From: Prevotella dentasini JCM 15908
GTDB taxonomy: Bacteria; Bacteroidota; Bacteroidia; Bacteroidales; Bacteroidaceae
Length of the DNA stretch: 64,000 nt
Direction: 5' to 3'
Assembly (NCBI RefSeq): GCF_000614065.1
Contig: NZ_BAKG01000002.1
Coordinates: forward strand, 1 to 64,000
The position numbers and the translations under genes are program-made. The stretch's first letter is position 1, and every line of letters starts with the position of its first letter. Below, in pieces: positions 17,904 to 39,219 of the stretch. A model generated the notes under the pieces. That model had not been told where the DNA came from, did not search any database, and saw nothing but the letters and a program-made list of their open reading frames with translations.

Positions 17904-18461
17904 ATGTCAATGGCAACAGAAAGAAAAGAACGTTTCCGTCAGCAGTTTCAGCAGTACTATCCTGTCCTTTGCAGGATAGCACACGGATATGTTGCCGACC
18001 CCGACGACTGCGAAGACATCGTGCAAGACCTCTTTGTCAGTGTCTGGAGCCGTGGGAAGGACGAGCTGCCCGACGACGAGCTGGGAGCTTACCTGAAGAT
18101 GGCCGTACGCAACAACTGCCTTACCTTTCTGCGCAACCGCCGGTCATCGGATACCGTTTCGGTCGACGAAAAGCCATCGGCACTGGCGGATGCCGCCACC
18201 GACGATACCGCCACGACCGACTATGCGGCCATTCTCGGGCGCGTGCTCGACCAAATGCCACCGAAGTGCAGGGAAGTCTTCGTGATGTGCAAGCTGCAGA
18301 AGATGCGCTATAGAGAGATTGCCGACGCACTGAATATCTCGGAAAAGACGGTAGAGAATCATATCGGCAAGGCTATCAGAATCATTCGCGACTACGGTAC
18401 GGCCCATCCGCTGTTACTCTTGCTTCTCGCCTCATTACAAATTATTGCTACTGACGTATGA
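17904..18461 (+). CDS. ECF-type RNA polymerase sigma factor
   Basis: 185-aa sigma-70 family factor of the Bacteroidetes FecI-like group. Region 2 is visible as LCRIAHGYVADPDDCEDIVQ and DLFVSVW. Region 4 is visible as LDQMPPKCREVFVMCKLQKM and the helix-turn-helix YREIADALNISEKTVENHIG. The stop overlaps the FecR gene start (ATGA at 18458), so the two are coupled. It should drive genes in response to a signal relayed from the TonB receptor through FecR. Confidence 0.93.
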   Translation: MSMATERKERFRQQFQQYYPVLCRIAHGYVADPDDCEDIVQDLFVSVWSRGKDELPDDELGAYLKMAVRNNCLTFLRNRRSSDTVSVDEKPSALADAATDDTATTDYAAILGRVLDQMPPKCREVFVMCKLQKMRYREIADALNISEKTVENHIGKAIRIIRDYGTAHPLLLLLLASLQIIATDV

Positions 18462-19408
18462 AAACTAAGATGAATATAGACGAAATATTGGCACGCCACT
18501 TTGCCAATGAGCCGCTCGCGGATGCCGGGCAGGCTATATTGGACTCCTTTCAGTCCGAACATAAGCAGGAGTATGACCGTATGGTCAGGCTGATGCAGCG
18601 CATTGATGCCGGCAGGGAGCTTCCCGGGAAGCCCTTGGCGGTTGACGTGGAGGCTGCATGGCAGAAGGTGGAATGTCGGTTGGAAGAGGAACGGAAACCG
18701 CTTCTCGTGCGTTTGCGTCCTGTTCTCGGCATTGCCGCCTCTCTGTTGCTGCTGATAGGCGCAGCGGTGTTCTTCTATGGCAGACATTCGGGAACGCAGC
18801 TTTATGCCAATACGGGGAATACGGGCGATACCATCCTGCTGAAAGACGGCTCGAGGGTGGTGCTGTATCCTCATTCAGAGTTGTCTTTCACGACTGGCGA
18901 CAAGTCCGGGCGAGTGGCAAGTCTGACGGGCAAGGCCTTTTTCAATGTCCGGCACACCGGTCAGCCGTTTACGGTGGAGGCCGACGAATTGGATGTCCGG
19001 GTGCTCGGCACGTCGTTTATGGTAGACGGAACGAAAGAGGGAAGCGAGCGTGTCAGTGTCTCCACCGGGCGCGTGCAGGTTGTCCTCAACGAGCAGACGG
19101 CTGTCCTCACGCGCGGCGAGCAGATTTCCGTCAGTGCGGGACAGCTCGGCAGCAAGACGAGGATGCCCGGGACAAGGGACGGCAGAAAGACCTTCGTCTT
19201 CAGGGATACGCCTATAAGCGAAGCCGTCAGGCAGATAGAAAAGGAGATGGACGTGGAGATAAGGCTGGAGGCAGACGTCGCTTCGGGCAACCGGGTTACC
19301 ACGCGGCTCGACATCAGCGAGCCTTCTGAGGCCGTCAGGGAGCTTTCGATGCTCTGCAACTGCCGTTACGACTCCGTTTCTCCGCTGAAATACCGTATGT
19401 ATAGGTAA
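18458..19408 (+). CDS. FecR-family anti-sigma factor
   Basis: 316-aa inner-membrane protein. The cytoplasmic N-terminus (about 90 residues, binding the sigma factor) is followed by a membrane helix (VLGIAASLLLLIGAAVFFYG). The FecR domain follows with LLKDGSRVVLYPHSELSFTT, LTGKAFFNVRHTGQPFTVEA and VLGTSFMVDG. A C-terminal DUF4974/STN-like domain contains FRDTPISEAVRQIEKEMDVE and ELSMLCNCRYDSVSPLKYRM. It overlaps the sigma gene by 4 bp and precedes the STN-bearing receptor, completing a trans-envelope signalling set. Confidence 0.92.
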   Translation: MKTKMNIDEILARHFANEPLADAGQAILDSFQSEHKQEYDRMVRLMQRIDAGRELPGKPLAVDVEAAWQKVECRLEEERKPLLVRLRPVLGIAASLLLLIGAAVFFYGRHSGTQLYANTGNTGDTILLKDGSRVVLYPHSELSFTTGDKSGRVASLTGKAFFNVRHTGQPFTVEADELDVRVLGTSFMVDGTKEGSERVSVSTGRVQVVLNEQTAVLTRGEQISVSAGQLGSKTRMPGTRDGRKTFVFRDTPISEAVRQIEKEMDVEIRLEADVASGNRVTTRLDISEPSEAVRELSMLCNCRYDSVSPLKYRMYR

Positions 19409-19486
19409 ATGTTCCCACGGACTTTCCGGGGGAGAAGGCCGCATCGGGCGGTCTGGCCGGGGGAATATATATAGAACAAGGAATTA

Positions 19487-22194
19487 TTGCATAGGCTACT
19501 GTTGACAATCATCATGATGCTGCTGACGCTCTCGGTGAGCGCGCAGTCATCGGTGGCAGAGGAAGTTATCCGTGTGGAGGCTTCTTCTGCACCGTGCATC
19601 AATGGTTCGACCGAATAGAGAGGGAGGGCAGGGTGGTGCTTGCCTATAACCCTTCGATGATAGAGATGTCGCGCCCCGTCGCGCTTACGGTGTCGGGGCG
19701 GATGACGGTAAGGCAGCTTCTTTCCTATCTGCTCGCAGGCTACGACTATCGGATAGAGCCGATGCCGGGACGGAAGATACTGATTCAGGTTGCAGGGAAG
19801 ACTGAGCGGACTGGCAAGGGCGAGGGGCAGGCCGCCCGCAACGGAACTCTGCCGCCCGGAGAGCGGACCGTCGAAGTGGCTGCCGGGACTGCATCGCTCC
19901 GCCAGTGGCTCGATGCCATTCAGCAACAGGCAGGAATCACCCTCCTGTTTACTCCTTCCGAGCTTGACATGAAGCGGCAGACGTCGTTCAGGGCAGGTGG
20001 TGCCATTACGGTGAGGAAGCTGCTCGGCATCCTGCTGAAAGACTATGTGTACAGCCTTGAGACGCTGTCGGCTGACCGTCTGCGCATAGCGGTGGACCAT
20101 CCGCTGCGGTTCGACATAACGGGGACGGTGCGCGAGGCGGAGAGTAACGAGAAGCTGCTCGGCGCCACCGTCACGGTGATTGACTGCAACGGCCATAGCA
20201 ACCATGCCGTTACCGACCGGAACGGATTCTTCAACGTCGCCGTGTGCGGCGGAAGCTGCACGCTGACGATTTCGTACGTGGGCTATGCCTCCTATACGGA
20301 GCGGTTCGACATAGCCGGAGACCGTCTCCTGTCCGTCCGGCTGGCACCGCTCCCCTACGAGATAAAGACCGTGCAGGTGCATCGGCGCAAGAGCATGGAG
20401 GAGATGGACGAGGTGGCGCCGTCGAACCTTGTCTCGTTCAGCAATGCCGACCTGTTTTCCCAAATCCGTATCCTGCCCGGCGTGTCGTCTGCCGTGCCGA
20501 ACATGAACTTCAACGTAGCCGGCGGCTCTGCCGACGAGAACCTTTTTCTGCTCGAGGGCTTCCCGGTCTACAATCCCGGACATATCAACTCGATGCTGAC
20601 GCTCTTCAACGGCGATGCCCTGAAAAGCGTATCTTTCTACAACAGCTTCATTCCCACGCAGTACGAGGGGCGGCTCTCCTCGGTTACCGACGTGCATCTC
20701 AGGGAGGGCAACAAGCGCGACTTTGCCAGTACGCTCTCGCTCGACATGCCTTCGGCCTCGGTGGTGCTTGAGGGGCCGATAGTCAGGGACAAGGTCTCCT
20801 GTCTGGTGAGCGGACGGCGCAGCTGGTTCGACTTATTCGGCAATATGATTTCGGACGAGGACTTTACCAACCACACCTTCTACGACTTCAATGCCAAGCT
20901 GTCCTGCGACCTCGACTCGGTAACCTCGCTGGAGGTGTCCGGCTACAACTCGTGCGACGACTATCACGTCTCCGACAACGGCAGGAAGGAGACGATGCTG
21001 CACTGGAACAACCAGCTCTTCTCGCTCCATTTCAGCACGCTCGTCAGCTCCAAGGTCGCCAATACCACCTCTCTCGCCTTCGGGCGGCATACCAACCGGG
21101 CCAATGCCGACACCTTCGGGATGGACAGCGTGGGCATCCTGCGCAGCCGCATCCGCAGTGTCTATGCCAATACGGAGTTTTCCTACAGTCCCGGTTCGCT
21201 CTATACGATGCGCTGGGGCATGAAGGGCGTGTTCGAGAAGTATGGTCTGGCCGCCTTCGGCATGTCGCTCCCCAACGAGTGGGAGCCGGTGAAGCAGCTG
21301 TCGCTCTTCTACGACAACCGCCTGCGCATATTTCCTTGGCTCTATGCGCAGGTGGGCGTCAACTACGTCTTCTACGTCCCGACCAACTACCGACGCTTCA
21401 GCAGCGTGCAGCCCCGGTTCTCGCTGAAGTTCGCCGCGGGCGGCAACGACCTGCTGCACTTCACCTTCTCGCGGATGGAGCAGTTCTATCACCACATCCG
21501 CCTGCTGGACGTCTCTACCCCGTTCGACTTCATGATGCCGAGCATCGCGGGCTTCAAGCCCAGCACCGCCACGCACTGCGAGCTGGGATGGAAGCATTTC
21601 AGCCGGCAGGGCATACTCGAGCTGTCGGCCTACTACAAGCGGCGCAACAATGTCCTCGCCTTGCGCCCCGACGTGTATATAGAGGACAGCGAGTGGGCGA
21701 AGTACATCATGGTGGGCAGGGGCGACAGCTACGGTGCCAGCCTCTATTACTACGACGGGTGGAAGCGGCTGAAGTGGCAGCTCTCCTATACGATTTCCAA
21801 GAGCCGGGAATGGTTCGACTATCTGCCGGACCGCCGCCGCGTGCCCTCGCTCTACGACGTTCCGCATGTATTCAACGGTGCCGTCTCCTGCGAGGTGGGC
21901 AGGCACTCGCTCCTCACCTTGGGCGGAAACCTCCATTCGGGGAAGGTGCTCATGGATGTCGTAGACGAGTCTGACGAAGCGTTCTCCACCTTCCGCAGCC
22001 AGCGCGACCCGCTCCGTTACCGCGTCGATGCCAGTTACACGTTCCGCAAGGAGTTCCGCCGCTCGAAGCTCCTCCTGCGCGTCGGGCTGTACAACATCCT
22101 CGGCAATCCGCCGGAAGACGAGATGTCGTTCTATTTCTCCTTCAAGATAAAGAACCACTGCATGCCTTTCGGCACCGTGTCGTTTAAGTTCTGA
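19487..22194 (+). CDS. TonB-dependent signalling receptor with two STN domains, frameshifted
   Basis: Outer-membrane active-transport receptor. The apparent signal peptide MHRLLLTIIMMLLTLSVSAQ uses TTG at 19487; ATG 19514 is the alternative. One G is missing at about 19588. Restoring it gives VEASSGTVHQWFDRIEREG and links to the long frame, 902 aa in all. Two successive STN-like domains follow, the second beginning VEVAAGTASLRQWLDAIQQQ. Next are a carboxypeptidase-like domain (ITGTVREAESNEKLLGATVT), a plug (LFSQIRILPGVSSAVPNMNF) and a barrel ending GTVSFKF. No SusD partner is present. It lies downstream of sigma and FecR genes, so it should be both transporter and signal input. Confidence 0.87.
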
Positions 22195-22454: not shown

Positions 22455-22549
22455 TGGGAAAAAGGTACGTACTTTTCACCAAAAAAGTACCTACTTTTCG
22501 GGCAAAAAGTACGTACTTTTTCTGCAAAACGTACGTACTTTTTTTCAGC
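22455..22549. repeat. Tandem array of four AAAGTACGTACTTT palindromes
   Basis: Four consecutive units of 22-26 bp, starting at about 22455, 22481, 22504 and 22526. Each is built on the palindrome aaaagtacgtactttt with slight variation (ggtacgtactttt, aagtacctactttt, aagtacgtacttttt, cgtacgtactttttt). The spacers are 3-6 nt and differ (cacc, cgggc, ctgc). They are too short and too similar to be CRISPR spacers. Confidence 0.85.
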
Positions 22550-22791
22550 GTCGGAGGATGCTTTTGCAACGGCTTGGCAGTCAGCTTGTTATGTGAACGG
22601 CCGGAGAGGGCGGGATTTCCGGGAACCGATGCCGTCTTCCTCCCCCTCTTCTGAATTTCCGGGCCGTTCCCCCTTTCTCTCCTCTATGTCTTTTTTTCTT
22701 ACAAAACGGGAATCTCCTGTGCATCGGGACGCCGGCCGCCGCACTGCCCTGTGCCGCTGGCCTGCCACGTTAATTTACTTATTTTTAGGTA

Positions 22792-22822
22792 TTGCCAGTC
22801 CCGTACATTCGCATTATCTTTG
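22792..22822 (+). promoter_or_regulatory. Promoter of the receptor/lipoprotein/methyltransferase cluster
   Basis: TTG at 22792-22794 and TATCTTTG at 22815-22822 are spaced by 20 bp. Transcription from here would give a leader of over 200 nt before the receptor start. Confidence 0.65.
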
Positions 22823-22910
22823 CATCCGATAACTTATTTACTACATGAATTACCATAAATGACGTTGAAAAGGAAAGACCACATACGTGTTTTGGCACCC
22901 AAGGTGAATA

Positions 22911-22939
22911 GTGCGCTGTCTGTATTACGGACGGCGCAC
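22911..22939 (+). promoter_or_regulatory. Leader hairpin, possible attenuator
   Basis: A 13-bp stem (gtgcgctgtctgt with acggacggcgcac, two G-T pairs, loop att) is followed by a pyrimidine run ttctcttttc. It sits mid-leader between the promoter and the receptor start, as an intrinsic terminator or regulatory stem would. No cobalamin, TPP or other known riboswitch core is recognised around it. Confidence 0.6.
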
Positions 22940-23048
22940 TTCTCTTTTCTGAACGGTTCGGAATATTATTCGTTTTTAATCTATCAATGAAATATGAGAA
23001 GCAAAAAGACAAGGACAAACTTCCTCCGCGTGCAGTGCGGTGCCCGTC

Positions 23049-25394
23049 ATGGCGCGGGCGGGTAGGAAATGGCTGCCGGTGCTGCTGGCGTGGCTCTTCG
23101 GGACGCTGACAGTGGCGGCGCAGGAAGCCGTGGTTTACGGAACGATTACGGACGAGAAGACGGGCGAGCCGCTTGCAGGCGCATCGGTGTCGGCCGTGGA
23201 GGGCAGGGTCGGGGCGGTCTCTGACGCCGGCGGCTGCTATCGGCTGAGGATTCAGGCAGGGCGCATGCAGCTGACCTTCCAGTATATGGGATACAAGACT
23301 GCACGGCGCGACCTGACCGTGCACGACAGCCTGCGGTGCGACGTACGGCTGCGCACGGCCGAGAACGAGCTGGGCGAGGTGACGGTAACGGCACGCAGCG
23401 AGATGCGCCGGCTGAAGGAGTCGGCCATGCCCATCTCCGTCATAGGGCAGCGGCAGCTGCAGGGCACGGCCTCCAGCATCAACGACGTGCTCGCCCGTAC
23501 CGTCGGCGTTACCGTGCGCAACACGGGCGGCATGGGCAGCGCGTCGCGCATCTCCGTCCGCGGACTGGAGGGAAAGCGCATGGGAATGTACGTCGACGAC
23601 GCACCCATGTCGCAGCTGAGCAACTTCGTGGCCCTGAACGACATCCCCACCAACATGATTGAGCGCATAGAGGTGTATAAGGGCATCGTTCCCTACAAGT
23701 TCGGAGGCTCGGCACTGGGCGGGGCCGTCAATGTGGTGACGAAGGAATATCCGCCCGTCTACTTCGACGTATCCTACGAGATTGGCTCCTTCGGCACCCA
23801 TCAGGTGTCGGCCGTGATGAAGCGCACCGACCGCAGGAGCGGCCTGCAGTTCGGCATCGGCGGCGTCTGCACGCTGGCCAAGAACAACTACAGGATGGCC
23901 TTGGACAACCTCGGCGGCCGCACGGTGGAGCGGAATCACGACCGTTTCGGCAAGATAATGGGCGGCATGTCGCTGAAAGCCACCAAGTGGTGGTTCGACG
24001 AGATGAAGCTGGAACTCGTCGCCATGAAGACCCGGCAGGAGATACAGGGTATCGACTTCGACGTGCGCGAGGCCTACAACCATTCGGTTAACTATATTAC
24101 GGCACTGACGCTGAAGCGCAGGAATTTCTTCCTCGACGGGCTCGATCTCGACTTCGATGCAGGCTATGTCGCCGGCAGGTACGGACTGCGCGACAAGGCC
24201 ATGCACCGCTACGACTGGGACGGCAGGGAGCTTCCGCCCGTATCGGCGTTCGGAGGCGAGCAGAACAGCTTCCCGTCCGACGGGCGCAACCGTTCGGGCG
24301 AGCTGACGGCGAAGCTCAACATGGGCTATACCGTCGACATGCACCACACGGTGAACCTCAACATCTACGCCGACCGTACCTCCCTCCATCCCAGCGACTC
24401 GCTGATGGACAGGGCACTGGGCTTCCGCTCCAACTTCCCGAGCAGGATGAACACCCTCACCGTAGGCTTTTCCTACGACCTGACGCTCTTCGGCGGCCGG
24501 TTTCAGAACGCCTTCACGCTGAAGAGCTTCCTCTTCTCGTCCGACTCGCGCAGCATCGACACCTATTCCGTAAACGAACCCGAGCCGGTAAGGGTATCCA
24601 AGAACTACCTCGGATTCAGCGACGCACTGCGCTACAAGTTCACCGACGATCTGATGCTCAAGGCCTCGTTCAACTCCGAGGTGCGCATCCCGACGAGCGA
24701 GGAGCTCATCGGAAACGGATACTCCATCCTCGCCTCGCCGGCACTGAAGCCCGAGCGCACGACGGGAGCCAACGTCGGACTGCTCTACCGGCGGGTGAAG
24801 GCAGACGGCGGACTCGTGGAGGTGGAGCTGAACGGATTCTACAATCAGCTGGAAGACATGATACGGTTTACGCCAGACATGATACCGACCATGGCGCGAT
24901 ACCGCAACTTCGGCAGCGTCCGTACCAAGGGCGTGGAGCTGGAGGCCAAGGGCGACGTCTGTCCGCTGCTTTACCTCTATGCCAACGGGACGTATCAGGA
25001 CCTCCGCGACGTGCGGAAGACCATCCCCGGAACGGAAGTGGAGAACCCCACACACGGCATGCGCATCCCGAACGTGCCCTATCTGCTGGCCAACTTCGGC
25101 GCGGAGCTGCACCGGGAGAACCTCTTCGGCGGCCGAGGACAGAACACGCGCCTGCTCTTCGATGCCTCCTACGTCCACCGCTACTTCTACGATTTCGAGA
25201 TGAGCAAGTATCAGGAGCGCAGGATTCCCACCTCCCTGACAATGGACGCAGCCGTGGAGCACAGCTTCGACAACGACCGCTGGACGCTCACCCTCAAGAT
25301 GAGGAACCTTGCCGGACGCCGCGTCGTCTCCGAGCTGAACCGCCCTCTGCCGGGCCGCTACGTAGGCTTCAAGGTGAGATACCTGTTTAAGTAG
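23049..25394 (+). CDS. TonB-dependent outer-membrane receptor
   Basis: 781-aa receptor (from ATG 23049). The signal peptide MARAGRKWLPVLLAWLFGTL ends at VAAQ. A GTG at 23040 is in frame, and an ATG at 22994 is out of frame. Residues 20-105 form a carboxypeptidase-like domain (VYGTITDEKTGEPLAGASVS). The plug follows (SINDVLARTVGVTVRNTGGM, RISVRGLEGKRMGMYVDDAP, IERIEVYKGIVPYKFGGSAL). The barrel ends PGRYVGFKVRYLFK. The plug style is that of siderophore, heme or cobalamin receptors rather than SusC. No SusD or STN is present. The next gene is a surface-type lipoprotein, then a methyltransferase and TetR regulator, so a small-molecule or metal-chelate substrate is likely. Confidence 0.92.
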   Translation: MARAGRKWLPVLLAWLFGTLTVAAQEAVVYGTITDEKTGEPLAGASVSAVEGRVGAVSDAGGCYRLRIQAGRMQLTFQYMGYKTARRDLTVHDSLRCDVRLRTAENELGEVTVTARSEMRRLKESAMPISVIGQRQLQGTASSINDVLARTVGVTVRNTGGMGSASRISVRGLEGKRMGMYVDDAPMSQLSNFVALNDIPTNMIERIEVYKGIVPYKFGGSALGGAVNVVTKEYPPVYFDVSYEIGSFGTHQVSAVMKRTDRRSGLQFGIGGVCTLAKNNYRMALDNLGGRTVERNHDRFGKIMGGMSLKATKWWFDEMKLELVAMKTRQEIQGIDFDVREAYNHSVNYITALTLKRRNFFLDGLDLDFDAGYVAGRYGLRDKAMHRYDWDGRELPPVSAFGGEQNSFPSDGRNRSGELTAKLNMGYTVDMHHTVNLNIYADRTSLHPSDSLMDRALGFRSNFPSRMNTLTVGFSYDLTLFGGRFQNAFTLKSFLFSSDSRSIDTYSVNEPEPVRVSKNYLGFSDALRYKFTDDLMLKASFNSEVRIPTSEELIGNGYSILASPALKPERTTGANVGLLYRRVKADGGLVEVELNGFYNQLEDMIRFTPDMIPTMARYRNFGSVRTKGVELEAKGDVCPLLYLYANGTYQDLRDVRKTIPGTEVENPTHGMRIPNVPYLLANFGAELHRENLFGGRGQNTRLLFDASYVHRYFYDFEMSKYQERRIPTSLTMDAAVEHSFDNDRWTLTLKMRNLAGRRVVSELNRPLPGRYVGFKVRYLFK

Positions 25395-25520
25395 AACTGG
25401 CTGGCAGTGGTGCCGGACAGCGGCGGCCAAGGGTGTCGTACACCATAGGCCGTAGGCCGGCAGGACAAAGCCCGCAACTGATGCAGACAGAAACATTCAA
25501 CAATCAAAACAAATAAAGCA

Positions 25521-26768
25521 ATGAGAAACTTAAAATCAATCCTTTCCGCCATCGCCATGATGGCACTCGTCTGCTCATGCAGCAGCGACAGCGACAACCC
25601 CGTGCCCAACCCGACACCGACTCCGCCGGCTGAGGCCTTCAAGGGCGTCATCTTCGCGACCAGTATCACCAATCCCGAGGGAAACAACGGCAGCGGCTAC
25701 ATGCAGGCATTGCCCGATATGCTGTCCGGGACCTACGACAACAGCAACGGTGTCCCCGTCGGCTTCGGCGTCAGTCCCATCCCTGTGGAGTCGGGCAGCG
25801 TCTATGTGTTGCCCGACTACATGGGCAACGCCAAGGCCGAGATAGTCCGCTATGGTATTGACGCTGCCGGGAAGTGGGAAAAGAAGGGCGTGCTGCCTAT
25901 CCCGGCCGGTGCCGCAGCCTGCAACATCGTCGAGCTGAACAGCGAGAAAGCCTACGTCAGTCTTCAGGGACTGGGAATTGTGATGGCGTTCAACCCGGCT
26001 ACGATGGCCCGGCTGGCCGACATCGACCTCAACAGCCTCAGGCAGGAAGACACGAGAGTGGCCCCGGCGGCGATGATTATCCGCAACGGCAAGCTCTTCG
26101 TAGGCCTGAATCAGATGAACGCCCAGTACATGCCTGCACGGAACAACATAGAGCTGGCCGTGATAGACACGAAGACCGACAAGGTGGAGAAGCACATCGT
26201 CAACACCACGCTGGGACTCTGTTTTGCCACGCGCCCCATCTCGCCCCGGTCCATCTTCATGGACGAGAACCGGGACATCTACATCAACTGCATCGGTTCG
26301 TTCGGCTTCATTCCCGAGTTTCATGGCGGCATCGTGCGCATCAAGAACGGCTCTACCGACATAGACCCCGGCTACAGCATCCGCTGCGACCAGACCGAGG
26401 TCTCGGGGCTTCCCGCTAAGTATGCCGACTTCTTCGGTGAGGTCTGCTATGGCGGCAACGGGCAGCTCTATGCCTACGCCAATTGCTATCTGCTCGACCC
26501 CAAGGGAATGGAGAATCCGTATCTCAGCCTGACCAACATCCCCGTCGTCATTGACCTGAAGCAGAAGAGCATCAGCGTCATCAAGGGCATGGAAATCTCC
26601 AATCCGCAGGGCATCGCCATCGGCAGATACAAGAACCTGATGGTCTTCGGCAGTGCGAACAAGAAGGCGAACGGCTTCTATACCTACAATCCCGCGACGA
26701 AGGAGGTGGCAGGCCCCGTCATGCAGGTGAAGGGCAACCCGACCTTCTTCCACAGCTTTGCGAAGTAA
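25521..26768 (+). CDS. Beta-propeller lipoprotein (DUF4374-like)
   Basis: 415-aa lipoprotein with the signal MRNLKSILSAIAMMALVCSC, lipidation at Cys18 or Cys20, then an Asp/Ser and Pro-rich linker (SSDSDNPVPNPTPTPP). This is consistent with surface exposure. The rest shows repeated blades such as VYVLPDYMGNAKAEIVRYGI, AYVSLQGLGIVMAFNPATM and IELAVIDTKTDKVEKHIV. The layout resembles DUF4374 propellers, which accompany TonB receptors in Bacteroides iron-uptake systems. It starts 126 bp after the receptor and probably captures the same ligand. The family assignment is from memory and needs a profile search. Confidence 0.75.
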   Translation: MRNLKSILSAIAMMALVCSCSSDSDNPVPNPTPTPPAEAFKGVIFATSITNPEGNNGSGYMQALPDMLSGTYDNSNGVPVGFGVSPIPVESGSVYVLPDYMGNAKAEIVRYGIDAAGKWEKKGVLPIPAGAAACNIVELNSEKAYVSLQGLGIVMAFNPATMARLADIDLNSLRQEDTRVAPAAMIIRNGKLFVGLNQMNAQYMPARNNIELAVIDTKTDKVEKHIVNTTLGLCFATRPISPRSIFMDENRDIYINCIGSFGFIPEFHGGIVRIKNGSTDIDPGYSIRCDQTEVSGLPAKYADFFGEVCYGGNGQLYAYANCYLLDPKGMENPYLSLTNIPVVIDLKQKSISVIKGMEISNPQGIAIGRYKNLMVFGSANKKANGFYTYNPATKEVAGPVMQVKGNPTFFHSFAK

Positions 26769-26782
26769 GCCCGTCAATAGCC

Positions 26783-26818
26783 CCGGCTGTTTGCTGACAG
26801 TAGGCGGCAAACAGCCGG
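26783..26818 (+). promoter_or_regulatory. Intercistronic hairpin
   Basis: ccggctgtttgc (26783-26794) pairs perfectly with gcaaacagccgg (26807-26818). There is no T-run, so it may stabilise or process the message between the lipoprotein and methyltransferase genes instead of ending it. Confidence 0.6.
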
Positions 26819-26859
26819 TAAGGTGTTTCTTGTAAACGAATCATAAACGAAAGTCAACA

Positions 26860-27681
26860 ATGGAAAAGGTAAAAGCTGCATTGACGAAAATACCCGAGAC
26901 GATGCTCACCACCCTGTGGGCGAAAGCTGTGGAGACCGACCGGCCCGGTGGTCTGCTGCACGACGAGAAGGCGAAGGAGATAATCGGACAGATAGATTAC
27001 GACTTTGCGAAGTTCCGGAAGGCCAGGCTCTCGCAGGTAGGATGCTGTATCCGTGCCCGGCTGATTGACGATGAGGCCCGGCAGTTCCTCGCCCTCCATC
27101 CCGACGCGGTGGTCATACAATTGGGTGCAGGGCTTGATGCCCGCTACGAGCGGCTGGGCAGTCCTACGGTCAGCCACTGGTTCGACCTCGACCTGCCGGA
27201 AGCCGTCGCCCTGCGCCGCCGGTTCTTCACCGAGTCGGAGCGGAACAGCTTCCTTGCCGAGTCGATGTTCGGTGAGGAATGGATAGAGCGCGTGCAGTCG
27301 TATGGCAAGCCCGTCCTCATCATTCTCGAAGGCGTGGTGATGTATTTCAGCCAAGACGAGATAGAGATGCTCTTCAGGCGTCTCTGCGACAGCTTCCCAG
27401 CGGCTGCCGTCCTGTTCGACATGCTTGCCTTCTGCGCCGTCGGCCGTGCCAAGCAGCACGACATGCTGCGCAGGATGGACGATGTTGCCGAGTTCAGATG
27501 GTCGCTGTTGGACACGAAGGATATGGAAGCGTGGGACAGCCGCCTGCACGTAGCGAAGGAATACTACATGAGCGACCACGGCGAAGGGCGGCTTCCGCTC
27601 GTCATCCGGCTGCTCTGCAAGATTCCCTACTGCTGGCGACGCCTCAATCAGCGCGTCGTCCGGCTTGAAATAGGGCGGTAG
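26860..27681 (+). CDS. Class I SAM-dependent methyltransferase, LCMT/TcmP-like
   Basis: 273-aa soluble protein of the leucine carboxyl methyltransferase / TcmP-like O-methyltransferase family. Landmarks are RARLIDDEARQFLALHPDAV, the SAM-binding VIQLGAGLDARYERL, VSHWFDLDLPEAVALRR (acidic residue binding ribose), ILEGVVMYFSQDEIEMLFRR and a late YYMSDHGEGRLPLVIR. It is of normal length, with no signal peptide. Family members methylate carboxyl or hydroxyl groups on small molecules or proteins; the substrate here is unknown. It lies between a receptor/lipoprotein pair and a TetR regulator, so it may modify the imported compound. Confidence 0.88.
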   Translation: MEKVKAALTKIPETMLTTLWAKAVETDRPGGLLHDEKAKEIIGQIDYDFAKFRKARLSQVGCCIRARLIDDEARQFLALHPDAVVIQLGAGLDARYERLGSPTVSHWFDLDLPEAVALRRRFFTESERNSFLAESMFGEEWIERVQSYGKPVLIILEGVVMYFSQDEIEMLFRRLCDSFPAAAVLFDMLAFCAVGRAKQHDMLRRMDDVAEFRWSLLDTKDMEAWDSRLHVAKEYYMSDHGEGRLPLVIRLLCKIPYCWRRLNQRVVRLEIGR

Positions 27682-27931
27682 GCTCTGTCGGTTTGGGAGT
27701 TACGGGAGTTGGGGAGGGGATGCCAAAGCCTTTGCCCCCTATAATAGGATGAAGAGAAATATCCGGCAAGACCTTTGGCCCTGTTTCTCTGACTCCCTTA
27801 ACTCCCTGACTTCTTCAGCTTCCGAACTTCCCCAAACCCTGTGCTTGCCGGACTTCCCGGACTCCTTTAGCTCCCTGACATTCCACAACTTCTTACCCTC
27901 CGAAACAATATTCCATCATTCCTCCTCTATA

Positions 27932-28549
27932 ATGCAGACACAGAAAGACGAAATACGCAGGCTTTTACTCCTCGTTGCACGCGACGAGTTCCTGAAGAAT
28001 GGCGTGAAGCGAACTTCCATGAAGACCATTGCCGACAAGTCGGGTGTGGCCGTAGGCAACATTTACAACTACTACAAGGGCAAGGACGACCTTCTGAAAG
28101 CGGTTCTCGCTCCGCTCTTCAAGGTCTGTAGAGACTACCGGGCTATGAACCTCGACGTTACCTATACGACGCTCGACCTCTTCCGCTACGAGGTTTACTA
28201 CGAGATAATGCGGCAGCAGGTAGCCTCGTTCGTAAAGCCCTACCGAAAGGAACTCCGCCTGTTGATTTTTGAGACGGCCGGCACCTCGCTCGAAGGCTGT
28301 TTCAGCCAGTGGTTGGAAGGATTCTTCCAAGACGGGCAGAGGTACATAGCCCGGATGAAGCAGCTGCATCCGAGCATCACGGCCGACGTGTCTCCGCATT
28401 TTGTCCGTATTCTCTGCGAGCTGTGGAGCGGACTTATCAAGACCATCGTCGTGAACGAAGAAATCTCCGAGGACGGTCTGAACAAAATAATTTCCAACTA
28501 TGTCCGCTTCGGTATCGGGGGATGGAAAAGCCTGATGGGCGTGGAGTAG
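27932..28549 (+). CDS. TetR-family transcriptional regulator
   Basis: 205-aa regulator. The N-terminal helix-turn-helix reads VARDEFLKNGVKRTSMKTIA, then SGVAVGNIYNYYKGKDDLLK, the standard TetR pattern. The C-terminal ligand domain is not recognisable. The frame is open to an ATG at 27749, but that extension is compositionally biased (Ser, Pro, Phe from CT-rich repeat DNA). ATG 27932 gives a normal TetR start. As the last gene behind the receptor, lipoprotein and methyltransferase it probably represses the cluster. Confidence 0.88.
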   Translation: MQTQKDEIRRLLLLVARDEFLKNGVKRTSMKTIADKSGVAVGNIYNYYKGKDDLLKAVLAPLFKVCRDYRAMNLDVTYTTLDLFRYEVYYEIMRQQVASFVKPYRKELRLLIFETAGTSLEGCFSQWLEGFFQDGQRYIARMKQLHPSITADVSPHFVRILCELWSGLIKTIVVNEEISEDGLNKIISNYVRFGIGGWKSLMGVE

Positions 28550-29127: not shown

Positions 29128-32100
29128 CTACTTCTTCATCATCTCCTCAACGGCACGTTCCAGTTGGCGGTCGCGTCCTTCGAGATAGTCGGCAGGCGTG
29201 TTGTAGACTTCTATGTCAGGATTCAGCTGCAAGTTCTCGCCGAACCGGCCCTGCATGTCCTGACAGCCCACTTGCGGAATACCGAATATCATTCCGTTGA
29301 TGAGGCGTTCCCACCATACGGCGGTCATCGTTCCGGCTATCGGGGCACCTATGAGCTTGCCGATTCCGAGTGTCTTGTAGACCGACGGGAATCCGTGTCC
29401 GTTGCTGTAGTCGTCCTCGCAAATCAGTACGCACGAAGCTTTGTCCACTTGTTGAAGGGGTCGCTGCCGATGTATTTGCCCTGTGGCACGAAGTGCTGAT
29501 ACTCTTTTCCGCTAAGGAGCGTGCAGAGGTCGTCGTGCAGCCATCCGCCGCCATTGTGGCGTTCGTCTACGATGACGGCGTCCTTGGCGCGGTTCTCTGC
29601 ACTGAGCAGTTCGCTGTAGACGGTGCGGAAGCTGTGGCTGTCCATCTCCCTGACGTGGACGTAGGCGATTCGTCCGTGCGAGAGGCTGTCTACCATGGCG
29701 CGGTTGCGGTCTACCCAGCGTCTGTAGAGCAGGTCTTCCTCCTGACCCTTGGAAATGGCTTTGACGGTAACGTCGAACCGCTTCTTGGTCTTGGGGTTGA
29801 AGACCGACACGCGGACGGGCTTGCCTGCCTTTCCGTCGAGCAGATAGTTGTAGTCCTTGTCCTTGAGGATGGGCTCGCCGTCAATCTTCTCTATGATGCA
29901 GCCGCGCACGACGTCGGTTTTCTTCACTGCGAACGGGCCGCGCTTGATGACCTCTTCCACCTTCAGGCCGTCGCCGTCGTAGGCCGGGTCGAGGAAGAGA
30001 CCGAGCGAGGCGGTCTTCAGTGCAGCCCCGTAGGTGCCGTAGCGTGCGCCCGTGTGTGAGGCGTTCAGCTCTCCGAGCAGTTCGCTGAGCATGTCGCGGA
30101 AGTCGTAGTTGTTGTTGATGTAGGGCAGGAACCGCTCGTATGCCTTGCGGTAGCCGGCCCAGTCTACGCCGTGCAGCTTCGGGTCGTAGAACTTGTCCTG
30201 CACCTGCCGCCAAACGTGGTCGAAGATATACTGGCGTTCCTCGTTGGCCTTGAGGTTGAAACGTGCCTCATAGCTGATGTTGCTTGTGGCGTTCTTGGCG
30301 AGGTCTATCTTCTTGATGGCGTTGTCGGTGCAGAGGTAGAGATTCTTGAAGTTCTTGTCTGCCTCAAACGAACCGCCACCGACGTTCTTCAGTACCAGCT
30401 CAGTCTTGTCCTCTCTGAGGTCGTGCTTCCACAGGTCGTAGTCGTCCTCGAAGGCTGCCTGATAGTAGAGCGTGTCGCCGCCGGGGCTGAGGATGGCATC
30501 GCCCAAGTGGGATGAGTTGACCGTCAGGCGGACAATGCGGTCGCGGCAGTTGTCAAGGTCGAATACCAGTGCCTTTGTCTCGTCTTTCTTCTCCTTGTCT
30601 TTGTCCTTGCCCTTGGTATTCTTGGCAGCAGACTTCTTGCCCTTTGCCTTGCCCTTCTTGTCCTTCTCCTCTTTGGCCTTGGCTTCCTCTTTCTTCTTTT
30701 CGGCTTCGGCAGCGTCGGCAAGTTCCTTTTCCTCCTTGCTCATGCGGAACTTCTCGTAGGCGTCCAAGTCGAAGAACATGATGTAGACGTCGTCTTCCGT
30801 TCCCCAGCTGCCGTGGCTGCGGTATCCGGCGCGGTCGCTGGAGAAGGTCATGGCCTTGCCTCCGAGTGCCAACGGGCGTTGCCGTCCGAATAGCCGCTCT
30901 GGGTCAGGTCGGTCAGCTTGCCGCTGCCGCTGGCATCAACGAGTGCGATGTCGGGGCTGTTCCATCCTCCGTTGCCCATGTAGGGGGCAAGGAGCCAACG
31001 GCTGTCGGGGCTCCATGCAAACCAGAGGTCGCCGTCCTGATAGGAGTAGAGGTATTTCCCGTCCATAGCAGTCTTCACCTCCTTGGTCTTGAGGTCGAGC
31101 ACTTTCAGTGTGGAACGGTCTTCGTAGAAGGCCACCTTCTTGCCGTCGGGGCTGTATTGCGGCATCTGCGAGGTCAGGGAAGAGTGTGTCAGCTGCTCTT
31201 CTGCCAGTTCGGTGGCATACGTAAAGTTCTTTTCCTTGTCATTCTTTATCTTCGTCTGGTAAATCTGCCAGACTCCGCCACGCTCCGAGCCGTAGGCGAT
31301 GCTTTTGCCGTCGGGCGAGAAGCAGATGTTGCGCTCCTGTTCCGGAGTATCGGTTATCTGCTTGGTGGTCTTGTAGTCGGTTGAGGTAACGTAGACATCG
31401 CCGTGCAGCACGAAGGCTATCTCCTTGCCGCTGGGCGACACCTTTATCTCTGTAGCTCCACTGGTGCGCACCTGTCGGTCGAGCGTTTTCTCGGTCTGGT
31501 CGGTCGTGATGCTGATGCTGACCTTCCGTGGCTCTCCTCCCTGTGCCAGTGTGTAGACCTCTCCGTCGTATCCGTAGCACAGGGTTCCGTTCTTGGCTGC
31601 GGTCAGGAAGCGTACGGGATGGTTCTTGTGGCGGGTCAGCTGGGTTTTGCCAGTTCCGTCAGTATTGCTGCGGTAGACGTTGAAGGTGCCGTCTTCCTCG
31701 CTCAGATAGTAGTAGCTCTTGTCGTCGGAAGCCCATACCGGGGTGCGGTCCTCGCCATGGAAGGTGGTCAGCTTCGTGTAGTTGCCTTTTCTGAAGAGCC
31801 ATATATCCCGGGCGATGGGCGATTGATGGTGCTTTCGGAAAGGGTCTTCGTAGCCCTTTTGGTCGTGGTACAGAATGTCGCCGTTGGCATTGACGGAGGC
31901 ATCGCACATTGTGATGGCAGAGTAGAGTCGCGGGCGGCTGCCGTCGGTGCCGACTACGTAGGTCTGCGGAAACGAGTTGGAGGCGAAGATGATAGACTGC
32001 GCTGTCGGCATGCCTGTGGCAGAGAAGAGAATGTGCGTGTCGTCGCTGAACGCCATGGGCTGCTCGTTGCCGCTGTCGGTGGTCAGCCGTTGGGGCGTGC

Positions 32101-32388
32101 CGCCGTCTTTTCCCATCAGATAGATGTCCATGCTGCCCTCGCGGGTGGAGGCGAAGGCTATTTTGCTTCCGTCTTTGCTCCATACGGGATAGGCATCGTA
32201 GGCAGTGTTGGTGGTCAGCTGGCGTGCGCTGCCGCCGCCTGCCGGCACGGTGTAAATGTCGCCTTTGTAAGTGAAGGCGATGGTCTGGCCGTCGGGCGAG
32301 ATGGCGCAGTGGCGCAGCATAGCGGATTGTCTTCGGCAGAAGCTGCCAGCGACAGGCCTAAAAGGAGGGTTGTAAGAATTTTTTTCAT
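29128..32388 (-). CDS. Tricorn-like S41 protease with N-terminal propeller, three frameshifts
   Basis: Periplasmic tricorn-type peptidase, 1087 aa after correction. Signal peptide MKKILTTLLLGLSLAASAED starts at 32388. WD40-like propeller blades follow (RHCAISPDGQTIAFTYKGDI, DAYPVWSKDGSKIAFASTRE), then a tricorn C1 segment, a PDZ domain and the S41 core (IVDERHNGGGWLHDDL, the serine in DDYSNGHGFP and IAGTMTAVWWE). Bases are missing near 32320, 30869 (GGG to GG) and 29445 (GGG to GG). Each fix restores conserved residues. A lysine/glutamate-rich stretch of about 60 residues around 30590-30745 is an unusual insertion. It would trim peptides released in the periplasm. Confidence 0.88.
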
Positions 32389-32755
32389 TGTTATAGATTT
32401 TGTTTTGCTGCAAATTTATATAATTATTCGGAGAAAACCATTGCCTTATGTGTTTTTTGTAGTAGAAAGGACAGATTTCGTTCCTAAATTAAAGTTAGGA
32501 CGGGCAACATCGATTATGAGAAATATAAAATAGGCTATGAGCCGTTGTCCATAGTCCGCTATTCTGTTTATTGATTGTCAGTTGTCAATTTAATATATTT
32601 CATTGCCAGTTATCAGTCTGCTGATTTCTTTTCGTTAAGTTCATGGAACTTGACAATCGCGGCAATAGAAGTCTCACAGGTATGTGGAAATCGTAGTCTT
32701 AATGTTATGCCAAAATCCATTTGTCTTTATCTTTGTTCTTTTTTATTAATAATTA
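32389..32755. other. Divergent intergenic region, no gene seen
   Basis: AT-rich spacer between the minus-strand protease and the plus-strand LRR protein. Apart from the promoter just after it, I see only a short imperfect repeat near 32570-32650 (ttgtcagttgtcaattt, then tgccagttatcag). Confidence 0.5.
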
Positions 32756-37434: not shown

Positions 37435-39219
37435 ATGATGAAAACTATAAACGAACGCCTCGCTGATCTCCGTGCGCTGATGAGAGAAGAAGGCATTATG
37501 GCATTTATTTTTCCAAGTACAGACCCCCATAACAGCGAATATGTAGCCGGACACTGGAAAGGACGTGAATGGATTTCGGGCTTCAACGGGTCGGCAGGAA
37601 CTGCTGTCGTAACGCTGGAGAGTGCCGCTTTGTGGACGGACTCGCGCTATTTTATCTCTGCTGCCGAACAGTTGGCAGATACGGAGTACGAACTGATGAG
37701 CTCCGTATGCTCGGAACGCCAACGGTGGAAGATTGGCTGGTACAGCAGTTGGCAGGCTATGAGAACCCCGTGGTGGGTGTGGATGGGAATGTCAACGCCT
37801 TTGCGGAAGTTTCGGAAATGATGGCGGAGCTGACGAAAAAGGCATCGTTTACCATTAGAACAGATTTAGATCCCTTGGCAAGGATATGGAGAAATCGTCC
37901 TGCCATCCCCGAAAGCCCTGTGTGTATTCATCCTTTGGAATATGCAGGCGAACCTGCAGCAGACAAAATCGGAAGAATACGGCAAAGGCTGGCCGCCTAT
38001 TGTACTGACGGACTTCTCGTTACTGCACTTGACGACATAGCGTGGACGCTCAACCTGCGTGGCAGCGACGTGCATTGCAATCCCGTCTTCGTTTCCTATT
38101 TGCTTATTTCTCCTCGAAGCGTAACGCTTTATATAAATAAGGTGAAGCTCTCGCAGGAGGTTGAAGATTACCTTGCTTCCGAACAAATAACGGTAGAGCC
38201 TTACGAGGCTGTGGCGGAAGGATTGAGGAAATACGACGGCGACAAGCTGTTGATAGACCCTGCTGCTACCAACTATACTCTGGCTACGGCAATGGATGCG
38301 GAAATGGTGGTGTATGCTGCTTCGCCTATTCCGGCAATGAAGGCTGTCAAGAACGAAGCCGAGGTGGCAGGATTCCGTGCTGCCATGATCCGGGACGGGG
38401 TGGCGATGGTGAAGTTTCTTGCATGGTTGAAACCTGCCGTTGAGGCCGGAGGCCAGACTGAACTGACGCTTGACGAGCGGTTGACGGCTCTACGGGCCGA
38501 ACAACCGCTATTCCGCGGAATATCTTTCGATACCATAGTCGGTTATGAGGCGCATGGTGCCATCGTCCATTACGAGGCGACTCCCGAGACGGATGTTCCC
38601 GTAGAGCCACGTGCTGGTGCTCATAGACAGTGGGGCGCAGTATGCAGACGGTACGACCGACATCACCCGGACAATAGCCTTGGGCGACCTCACCGACGAA
38701 CAGCGGAAGGTGTATACGCTTGTTCTGAAGGGACATATACAGCTTGACAGATGTAAGTTCCCCGTGGGTGCATGTGGTTCGCAGATAGATGCGATGGCAA
38801 GGGAGGCTATGTGGCGTGATGGATACAACTATATGCATGGTACGGGACATGGGGTGGGAAGCTATCTCAATGTACACGAAGGGCCGCATCAGATACGTAT
38901 GGAGTGGCGGCCGGCACCCATAGTGGCTGGAATGACCGTAACTGACGAGCCGGGCATCTATCTGGAAGGAAAGTTTGGAGTGCGTATAGAGAACACGCTC
39001 CTTGCCGTTCCCTATCGGACGACGGAGTTTGGCAGCTTTCTTGGGTTCGAGACGCTCACGCTTGCTCCCATTGATACTGCGCCCATTGTTATGGAAATGC
39101 TGACACCCGAGGAACGCGAGTGGCTCAATGTCTACCATCGCCGAGTCTTTGAGACGTTGTCGCCGCATCTTACAGAAATGGAGCGCGAGTGGTTGAGAGA
39201 AGCTACGAAGGCTATATAG
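37435..39219 (+). CDS. Xaa-Pro aminopeptidase (M24B), frameshifted
   Basis: Cytoplasmic metallopeptidase removing residues before proline, about 595 aa after correction. The N-terminal domain (ERLADLRALMREEGIMAFIF, GFNGSAGTAVV) is followed by a middle domain and the catalytic pita-bread fold. Metal ligands are visible in LIDSGAQYADGTTDITRT (two Asp), HGTGHGVGSYLNVHEGP (His) and TDEPGIYLEGKFGVRIENTL (two Glu). One A is missing near 37699 (ATGAGCTC for ATGAAGCTC). Two G are missing near 38613 (EPRGLVLIDSG restored). Start ATG 37435 or 37438. Confidence 0.9.

Follow-up and report, generated by a model that had tools for sequence, protein, structure and literature searches.

What is taken up, altered and sensed by a receptor, a lipoprotein, a methyltransferase and a TetR regulator encoded one after another on the same strand? 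This question is raised by a locus of Prevotella dentasini JCM 15908, found within the first 64,000 nucleotides (nt) of contig NZ_BAKG01000002.1, the stretch of DNA analysed here as a whole and called the window below. The quartet lies at 23049-28549 on the + strand, and its four reading frames are all open and co-directional, as described in an initial annotation made from the letters alone. Pfam matches likewise bear out that annotation for the TonB receptor, the LCM-type methyltransferase and the TetR regulator. The functional unit begins upstream of the genes, at an iron box at 22776-22794, while the start first given for it, 22792, is the TTG of the promoter. We consider it probable that the locus is an iron-starvation-induced, XusAB-like operon for the uptake of a ferric chelate, with feedback by TetR. 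Judged from sequence, the ligand is most likely a siderophore of other microbes, a candidate ferric chelate; iron-starvation control appears to be supported by a promoter box at FeoAB, flavodoxin and receptor genes, and the TetR feedback is probable. The uptake pair resembles the known Xus systems; what looks new is the control region, together with the assignment of the methyltransferase to the iron regulon. On this interpretation, a Prevotella operon type strongly induced in iron depletion would be linked to the XusAB class, a promoter box would be offered for the iron regulon of these genera, and a small-molecule methyltransferase as well as a TetR regulator would be put into that regulon.

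A receptor-lipoprotein pair behind an iron box

The receptor gene (23049..25394, + strand) starts with ATG, GTG at 23040 being a possible alternative, and its product matches the Plug (74.9 bits), barrel (101.7 bits) and CarbopepD_reg_2 families, with no STN match. Its best match among solved structures is 9gbc_A, the receptor of the XusAB complex, with 242 bits over residues 28-780, so that it is homologous to XusA over its full length; the next match is BtuB with 59 bits. The best NCBIfam model is that of the myxochelin receptor MxcH (337 bits, below the cut-off of 925). The lipoprotein (25521..26768, + strand; 415 amino acids) has a nearly invariant Cys20 in an alignment of 16 sequences, from which AlphaFold2 predicted a beta-propeller with a predicted local distance difference test score (pLDDT) of 84 and a predicted template modelling score of 0.84, in line with the surface propeller initially proposed. 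Searched with Foldseek, this model is closest to B. fragilis XusB (9hqe/9hqk, E 1e-18), to which it aligns with Z 32.8 over 354 residues (root-mean-square deviation 3.1, 14% identity). Hence, the suggested resemblance to XusA/XusB holds for both partners, while the DUF4374-like nature first ascribed to the lipoprotein does not: it has no meaningful Pfam match, and that to DUF4374 (PF14298) is a chance match with E 0.17. A profile search that detected DUF4374 in 9 of 119 genomes did not find it in the window genome; a separate search of this genome was also negative, no control genome giving a match there either. Since sequence profiles barely reach XusB, the lipoprotein is best regarded as a remote XusB relative and not as a DUF4374 member. 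Its distant paralogue in locus L087 reaches 22.2 bits for DUF4374, below the cut-off of 25.

As in XusABC of B. thetaiotaomicron and the B. fragilis system, a TonB receptor thus adjoins a propeller lipoprotein, which would catch the chelate at the surface and hand it over to the receptor. B. fragilis XusB is a ferrichrome binder, and in the PNAS 2026 paper on XusB the presence of receptor and PepSY genes next door counts in favour of DUF4374 homologues being genuine Xus systems (PMC13142918). In contrast to these systems, the window operon adds TetR and an optional methyltransferase, its lipoprotein lies outside DUF4374, and the PepSY reductase is missing, as the initial annotation had stated: PepSY_TM was not found in the assembly (G000; 2.55 Mb, 41 contigs, 85.85% complete), of which the window is contig 40.

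Receptor and lipoprotein genes lie side by side in 54 of 56 fetched loci (26 of 28 including the window, which is L001, plus 28 of 28); L008 and L009, where they do not, represent the weakest lipoprotein matches of their search. Loci from different collections overlap (for example, L016 with L060 and L097, L015 with L059 and L121, L021 with L124). The pair is the conserved core. Its lipoprotein is patchily distributed: a search at order level matched 9 of 295 genomes and one at family level 35 of 301, the window genome being counted in both. The closest named relative found is Prevotella sp. RUI040 (lipoprotein 86% identical). Of 16 named relatives (L013-L028), 12 have TetR close to the pair, on the upstream side of the receptor in L028 and downstream in all others. 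The methyltransferase lies near the pair in only three and is therefore optional. Within this set, L013 and L027 (P. corporis) alone have all four genes in window order. Of the expected conservation of four neighbours, the receptor-lipoprotein part thus stood and the quartet did not; nor do methyltransferase and TetR form a fixed set "in place of" PepSY. Distant paralogues of receptor and lipoprotein (28-31% identity in the latter) adjoin ABC pairs in L094, L150, L151 and L154 and non-ribosomal peptide synthetase (NRPS) genes in three genomes (L087, L088, L093), and a siderophore-like ligand is favoured because of this company. All three NRPS loci hold an ABC pair and a CmoA-like methyltransferase, L087 and L093 a phosphopantetheinyl transferase, and L087 and L088 an LCM methyltransferase; the NRPS matches include MxcG and EntF, both below their cut-offs. 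In the same comparison, no LCM methyltransferase was found in the examined stretches of genome G371. The available part of a B. dorei paper (PMC12746155) contains no description of the NRPS cluster.

Upstream of the receptor gene, the iron box TACTTATTTTTAGGTATTG (22776..22794, + strand, exact site) overlaps the -33 TTG and is followed by the -7 element TATCTTTG (22815..22822, + strand) of what we take to be a Bacteroidetes-type promoter. In 14 of the 16 loci from L013 to L028, the receptor leader carries TACYYA-N4-TRGGTATTG across the -33 TTG and then, with the same spacing, TANNTTTG at -7. The pattern combining half-box and -7 element, GGTATTG-N20-TANNTTTG, occurs in the window at 22788-22822; direct pattern searches find this box, which a survey based on called receptor starts had missed, the start having been set too far downstream. 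In eight genomes the pattern gave 72 matches versus 2 for the reversed control pattern; these genomes, like the 12 of the repeat search below, were picked by us from those with lipoprotein matches. Of the 40 matches fetched, 32 have a gene start within 300 nt, two are inside genes and six have neither. According to Pfam, the first genes at these 32 sites include 11 TonB receptors (Plug), 3 flavodoxins, 1 DUF2023, 3 TetR and 1 ABC protein, hence 19 genes of these classes, one site being L217 with a TetR beside a receptor-lipoprotein pair. Others are unrelated enzymes, e.g. pyruvate phosphate dikinase, and one site has an imelysin gene in second place. With at most one mismatch, the window genome has five hits for the box (control, one): at the receptor promoter, at a FeoA-FeoB fusion (two overlapping), at flavodoxin-DUF2023 (one) and at one other place. 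Inspection of G000:C34:94517-94590 and C38:58103-58124 showed two tandem iron boxes at flavodoxin-DUF2023 and a nearly palindromic box at FeoAB.

Flavodoxin, a classic iron-sparing gene, is preceded by the box in five genomes (as second gene in G524). Because the box stands upstream of FeoAB and flavodoxin as well, it was assigned as an iron box, and an earlier reading as TetR operator was dropped once these sites had turned up. The genes behind the box promoter are accordingly read, from their predicted identities, as an iron-starvation regulon. An iron-loaded Fur- or DtxR-like putative repressor on the box would block the promoter in high iron; the genome has three Fur homologues, on contigs C32, C24 and C39. 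A literature search found no iron-regulon box published for these genera in the available parts of the papers covered, including PMC6613475, PMC12596196 and PMC10434189: according to the first, PgFur does not bind the Fur box of E. coli, the accessible text of the second, on the B. theta modulome, lacks the whole words Fur and iron, and that of the third lacks the word "motif" and gives no box.

An induced counterpart has been published for P. intermedia, where the operon PIOMA14_I_0603-0605, encoding a receptor, a hypothetical protein and a TetR regulator, is up 129-, 289- and 268-fold in iron depletion (PMC10434189, Lewis & Gui). It has the same order as in the window, though without a methyltransferase, and from gene order we infer that the two operons are orthologous; P. 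pallens (L018) has the same receptor-lipoprotein-TetR trio with an iron box. In the accessible portion of the P. intermedia report, the operon appears without an assigned function and the xus locus is stated not to be found; in low iron, several TetR-ABC-ABC-MMPL operons are induced and flavodoxin-DUF2023 is up 159- and 164-fold (PMC10434189). The initial remark that no system with this set was known has to be qualified: a receptor-hypothetical-TetR operon had in fact been published as strongly iron-induced.

Leader hairpin, inverted repeat and TetR

Between promoter and receptor gene, a terminator-like hairpin (22910-22940, + strand) of 14 pairs followed by a T-rich tail is predicted with -25.3 kcal/mol (z -8.0). 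As a general terminator scan of the leader region was not above shuffles (3 found versus a shuffled mean of 5.0), the case for the hairpin rests on its conservation. Hairpins were taken from repeat-bearing leaders, all 16 of which had one, and 15 were aligned (with gaps in the 5' arm of rows L021, L253 and L095). Here, 11 of 11 tested pairs changed on both sides, 94% of cells were paired, and the alignment score of 0.62 compares with 0.29 for shuffled and at most 0.19 for slid alignments.

The hairpin is followed by an inverted repeat, TGAAC-N13-ATTCG (22950-22972, + strand), which is proposed as candidate TetR operator. The corresponding pattern TGAAYN13RTTCRTTWTT has a single match in the window assembly and 10 matches in the 12 genomes (control, 1), nine of them at receptor-lipoprotein or TetR/ABC/MMPL operons. 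Four of the matches, those in the window, G590, G549 and G561, are in leaders of receptor-lipoprotein operons. Four others (two in G307, one each in G590 and G561) are in leaders of TetR-ABC or ABC-ABC operons, one precedes an MMPL-like gene of G524, and the last, in G307, is located elsewhere. Seven of the chosen genomes have no TetR beside the main pair; six of these are devoid of the repeat, and G307 has it at its TetR-ABC operons. Moreover, the hairpin occurs in 12 of 17 TetR loci versus 4 of 31 others (near-identical loci collapsed; Fisher 9e-5, uncorrected for relatedness), and hairpin followed by repeat in 9 of 17 versus 1 of 31, again uncorrected. Ten rows (duplicates or cut flanks) were left out of the hairpin count, and L019 was set by hand to "no hairpin", its hairpin lying upstream of the promoter. 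TetR itself (27932..28549, + strand; 205 amino acids) carries an N-terminal helix-turn-helix (PF00440, 43.1 bits versus a cut-off of 24), whose stretch VAVGNIYNY is nearly the same in TetRs of TetR-ABC operons. Its start is most likely 27932 and not 27749, because homologues open with MQxQKDEIR or similar. Bound to the repeat after the hairpin, TetR would provide ligand-dependent feedback.

The main competitor of this proposal is that hairpin and repeat act jointly as an RNA element, i.e. an attenuator or a riboswitch-like structure, and that the repeat is no TetR operator. The sense-side T-run and the strong covariation indeed point to an RNA hairpin, but the repeat forms only a weak RNA fold of its own (-2.5 kcal/mol, no better than shuffles) and tracks TetR/ABC operons. 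Hence, a joint RNA element is considered a real possibility, yet not the favoured one. An open reading frame in the leader (22859-22990, 43 amino acids) was also tried as a conserved leader peptide and rejected, its frame being broken in close relatives; its conserved tail coincides with the DNA inverted repeat. Additionally, genes that look MMPL-like and LolA-like by eye follow the pair directly in L123, where hairpin and repeat precede the MMPL-like gene, and are located beyond TetR in L131 and L132.

Methyltransferase and inner-membrane step

The third gene (26860..27681, + strand) encodes an LCM/TIGR00027-type methyltransferase dependent on S-adenosylmethionine, which scores 52.9 bits both with PF04072 (cut-off 22.3) and with TIGR00027 (below the cut-off of 93.55) and keeps the motif LGAGLDAR. 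A profile of four such sequences retrieves LCMT1-type structures at E 0.003-0.013, while the predicted model (pLDDT 56) is too poor for use. LCM enzymes such as LCMT1 methylate carboxylates. Where present, the enzyme would thus methylate the imported chelate or its product, probably at a carboxylate, and chelate methylation would release iron or let the ligand be retained or re-exported.

Relatives of the methyltransferase were detected in 30 of the 301 genomes of the family. When 17 box promoters from receptor-lipoprotein loci were used to train a position matrix, its score exceeded that of each of 100 shuffles upstream of 21 of the 30 methyltransferase loci; most of these 21 are close orthologues and do not represent 21 independent events. 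The methyltransferase belongs to receptor-lipoprotein operons in L029 (window) and L030-L032. The box precedes TetR-methyltransferase-ABC-ABC operons in L104, L105, L157 and L158 and lies 46-72 nt upstream of methyltransferases away from TetR, ABC and pair (L034, L035, L042), 109 nt upstream of one followed by another receptor (L041) and about 700 nt away in L033. It was not found at L036, L047, L055, L056 and L058, L047 and L056 being NRPS clusters. Because the box stands upstream of the gene in such differing contexts, the methyltransferase appears tied to iron starvation, which supports the link drawn when it was first grouped with the uptake genes; that a ligand is imported, methylated and sensed, as proposed then, would be our inference as well.

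The enzyme may, however, be no more than a bystander within the iron regulon and act on an unrelated molecule, with the system consisting of receptor, lipoprotein and TetR only. This is suggested by its presence in just three of the 16 close relatives and by the box-controlled copies away from TetR, ABC and pair. On the other hand, several genomes have a copy between TetR and an exporter-fold ABC pair, and two NRPS clusters holding the paralogous pair contain one as well, so that the methyltransferase repeatedly joins likely chelate-handling genes. A mere bystander is therefore regarded as rather unlikely, and a role in chelate handling is preferred.

How the chelate or its iron would cross the inner membrane may differ between genomes. 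No PepSY_TM match was obtained for 13 of 32 genomes with lipoprotein matches, and only one such match adjoins a lipoprotein match, a distant one (28%) in G319. In G590, an operon sharing box, hairpin and repeat encodes two exporter-fold ABC proteins, an MMPL protein, a LolA-like protein and DUF1302 (Pfam), and an operon of G307 has the same make-up by eye. This set resembles siderophore import and recycling in mycobacteria; IrtAB/YbtPQ-type siderophore importers and MmpL-type exporters are known from mycobacteria and Yersinia, and the G590 operon shares with them the exporter-fold ABC pair and the MMPL protein. The inner-membrane steps would thus be supplied, in other species, by TetR/ABC/MMPL operons that carry this box, hairpin and repeat. 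In contrast, no operon of this kind was found in the window genome, where FeoAB could take up iron released in the periplasm.

A bolder extension combines these elements in a two-layer switch: the iron repressor would gate the promoter and a ligand-sensing TetR, via the repeat, passage past the hairpin, surface-capture operons would be coupled with ABC-ABC-MMPL operons for processing or recycling, and the methyltransferase would modify stolen siderophores. TetR would then sense the imported or methylated siderophore. We deem this scheme as a whole unlikely, albeit worth stating.

Several findings weigh against a XusAB-like ferric-chelate operon with TetR feedback. The lipoprotein is no Pfam DUF4374 member and only 14% identical to B. 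fragilis XusB; with the sequence profile of its family, YncE (E 0.010) scores as well as XusB/DUF4374 chains (E 0.011-0.021), and its model matches Barnesiella viscericola XusB with only Z 23.1, below BtuG. Besides the lack of a PepSY_TM match in the incomplete assembly, no close relative of the ABC pair was found there; only general ABC proteins matched, the best of which looks MsbA-like by eye. Most relatives are without the methyltransferase, and the NRPS clusters with distant paralogues carry no strict iron box. Finally, hairpin and repeat are lacking for the TetRs of L131 and L132 and for those next to the distant paralogues L092, L153 and L155, and the link between TetR and repeat rests on co-occurrence uncorrected for relatedness.

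Other ligands and flanking sequence

Among alternative ligands, heme or a porphyrin, whose propionates the methyltransferase would esterify, fits the carboxylate chemistry of LCM enzymes and the LCMT1-type structures nearest to the protein. Heme systems are also part of the Bacteroidetes iron stimulon (PMC10434189). The partner lipoprotein, however, has a predicted XusB fold, the receptor scores lower with the TonB-hemin model (107 bits, cut-off 317) than with the siderophore-receptor model MxcH, and the distant paralogues sit in NRPS clusters, which makes heme uptake distinctly improbable. Uptake of another metal complex, by way of a zinc, manganese or copper metallophore, is more improbable still. 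Metallophore systems have similar parts. Moreover, Feo can serve manganese, and FeoB1 of P. gingivalis is so labelled (PMC10434189), but the box also precedes flavodoxin in five genomes and the published response of P. intermedia is one to iron depletion (PMC10434189). Cobalamin uptake, for which the shared architecture of a receptor plus a surface propeller lipoprotein, the BtuG propellers as second in fold similarity (Z about 26, higher than one of the two listed XusB types) and the BtuB structures as next sequence matches of the receptor would speak, was rejected as very improbable, since XusA and B. fragilis XusB score clearly higher, no cobalamin riboswitch was found in the 64-kb window at Rfam gathering and the promoter carries an iron box.

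Directly upstream of the quartet, at 17904-22194, genes for an extracytoplasmic function (ECF) sigma factor, FecR and an STN-type receptor were considered as part of the unit and rejected: L013 is the only one of the loci L013-L028 in which all three stand beside it, and they probably form a separate signalling system. Degenerate repeats of the AAAAGTACGTACTTTT type occupy 22456-22560, upstream of the promoter region. Between methyltransferase and TetR, short repeated stretches (AACTCCCTGAC-like) at 27690-27930 extend the open TetR frame. Beyond the quartet, two genes, at 29128-32413 (minus strand) and 37435-39219, are apparently split across neighbouring frames, which look like frameshifts or assembly errors; one is Tricorn- or processing-protease-like by eye, and one is intact (594 amino acids) in L019.

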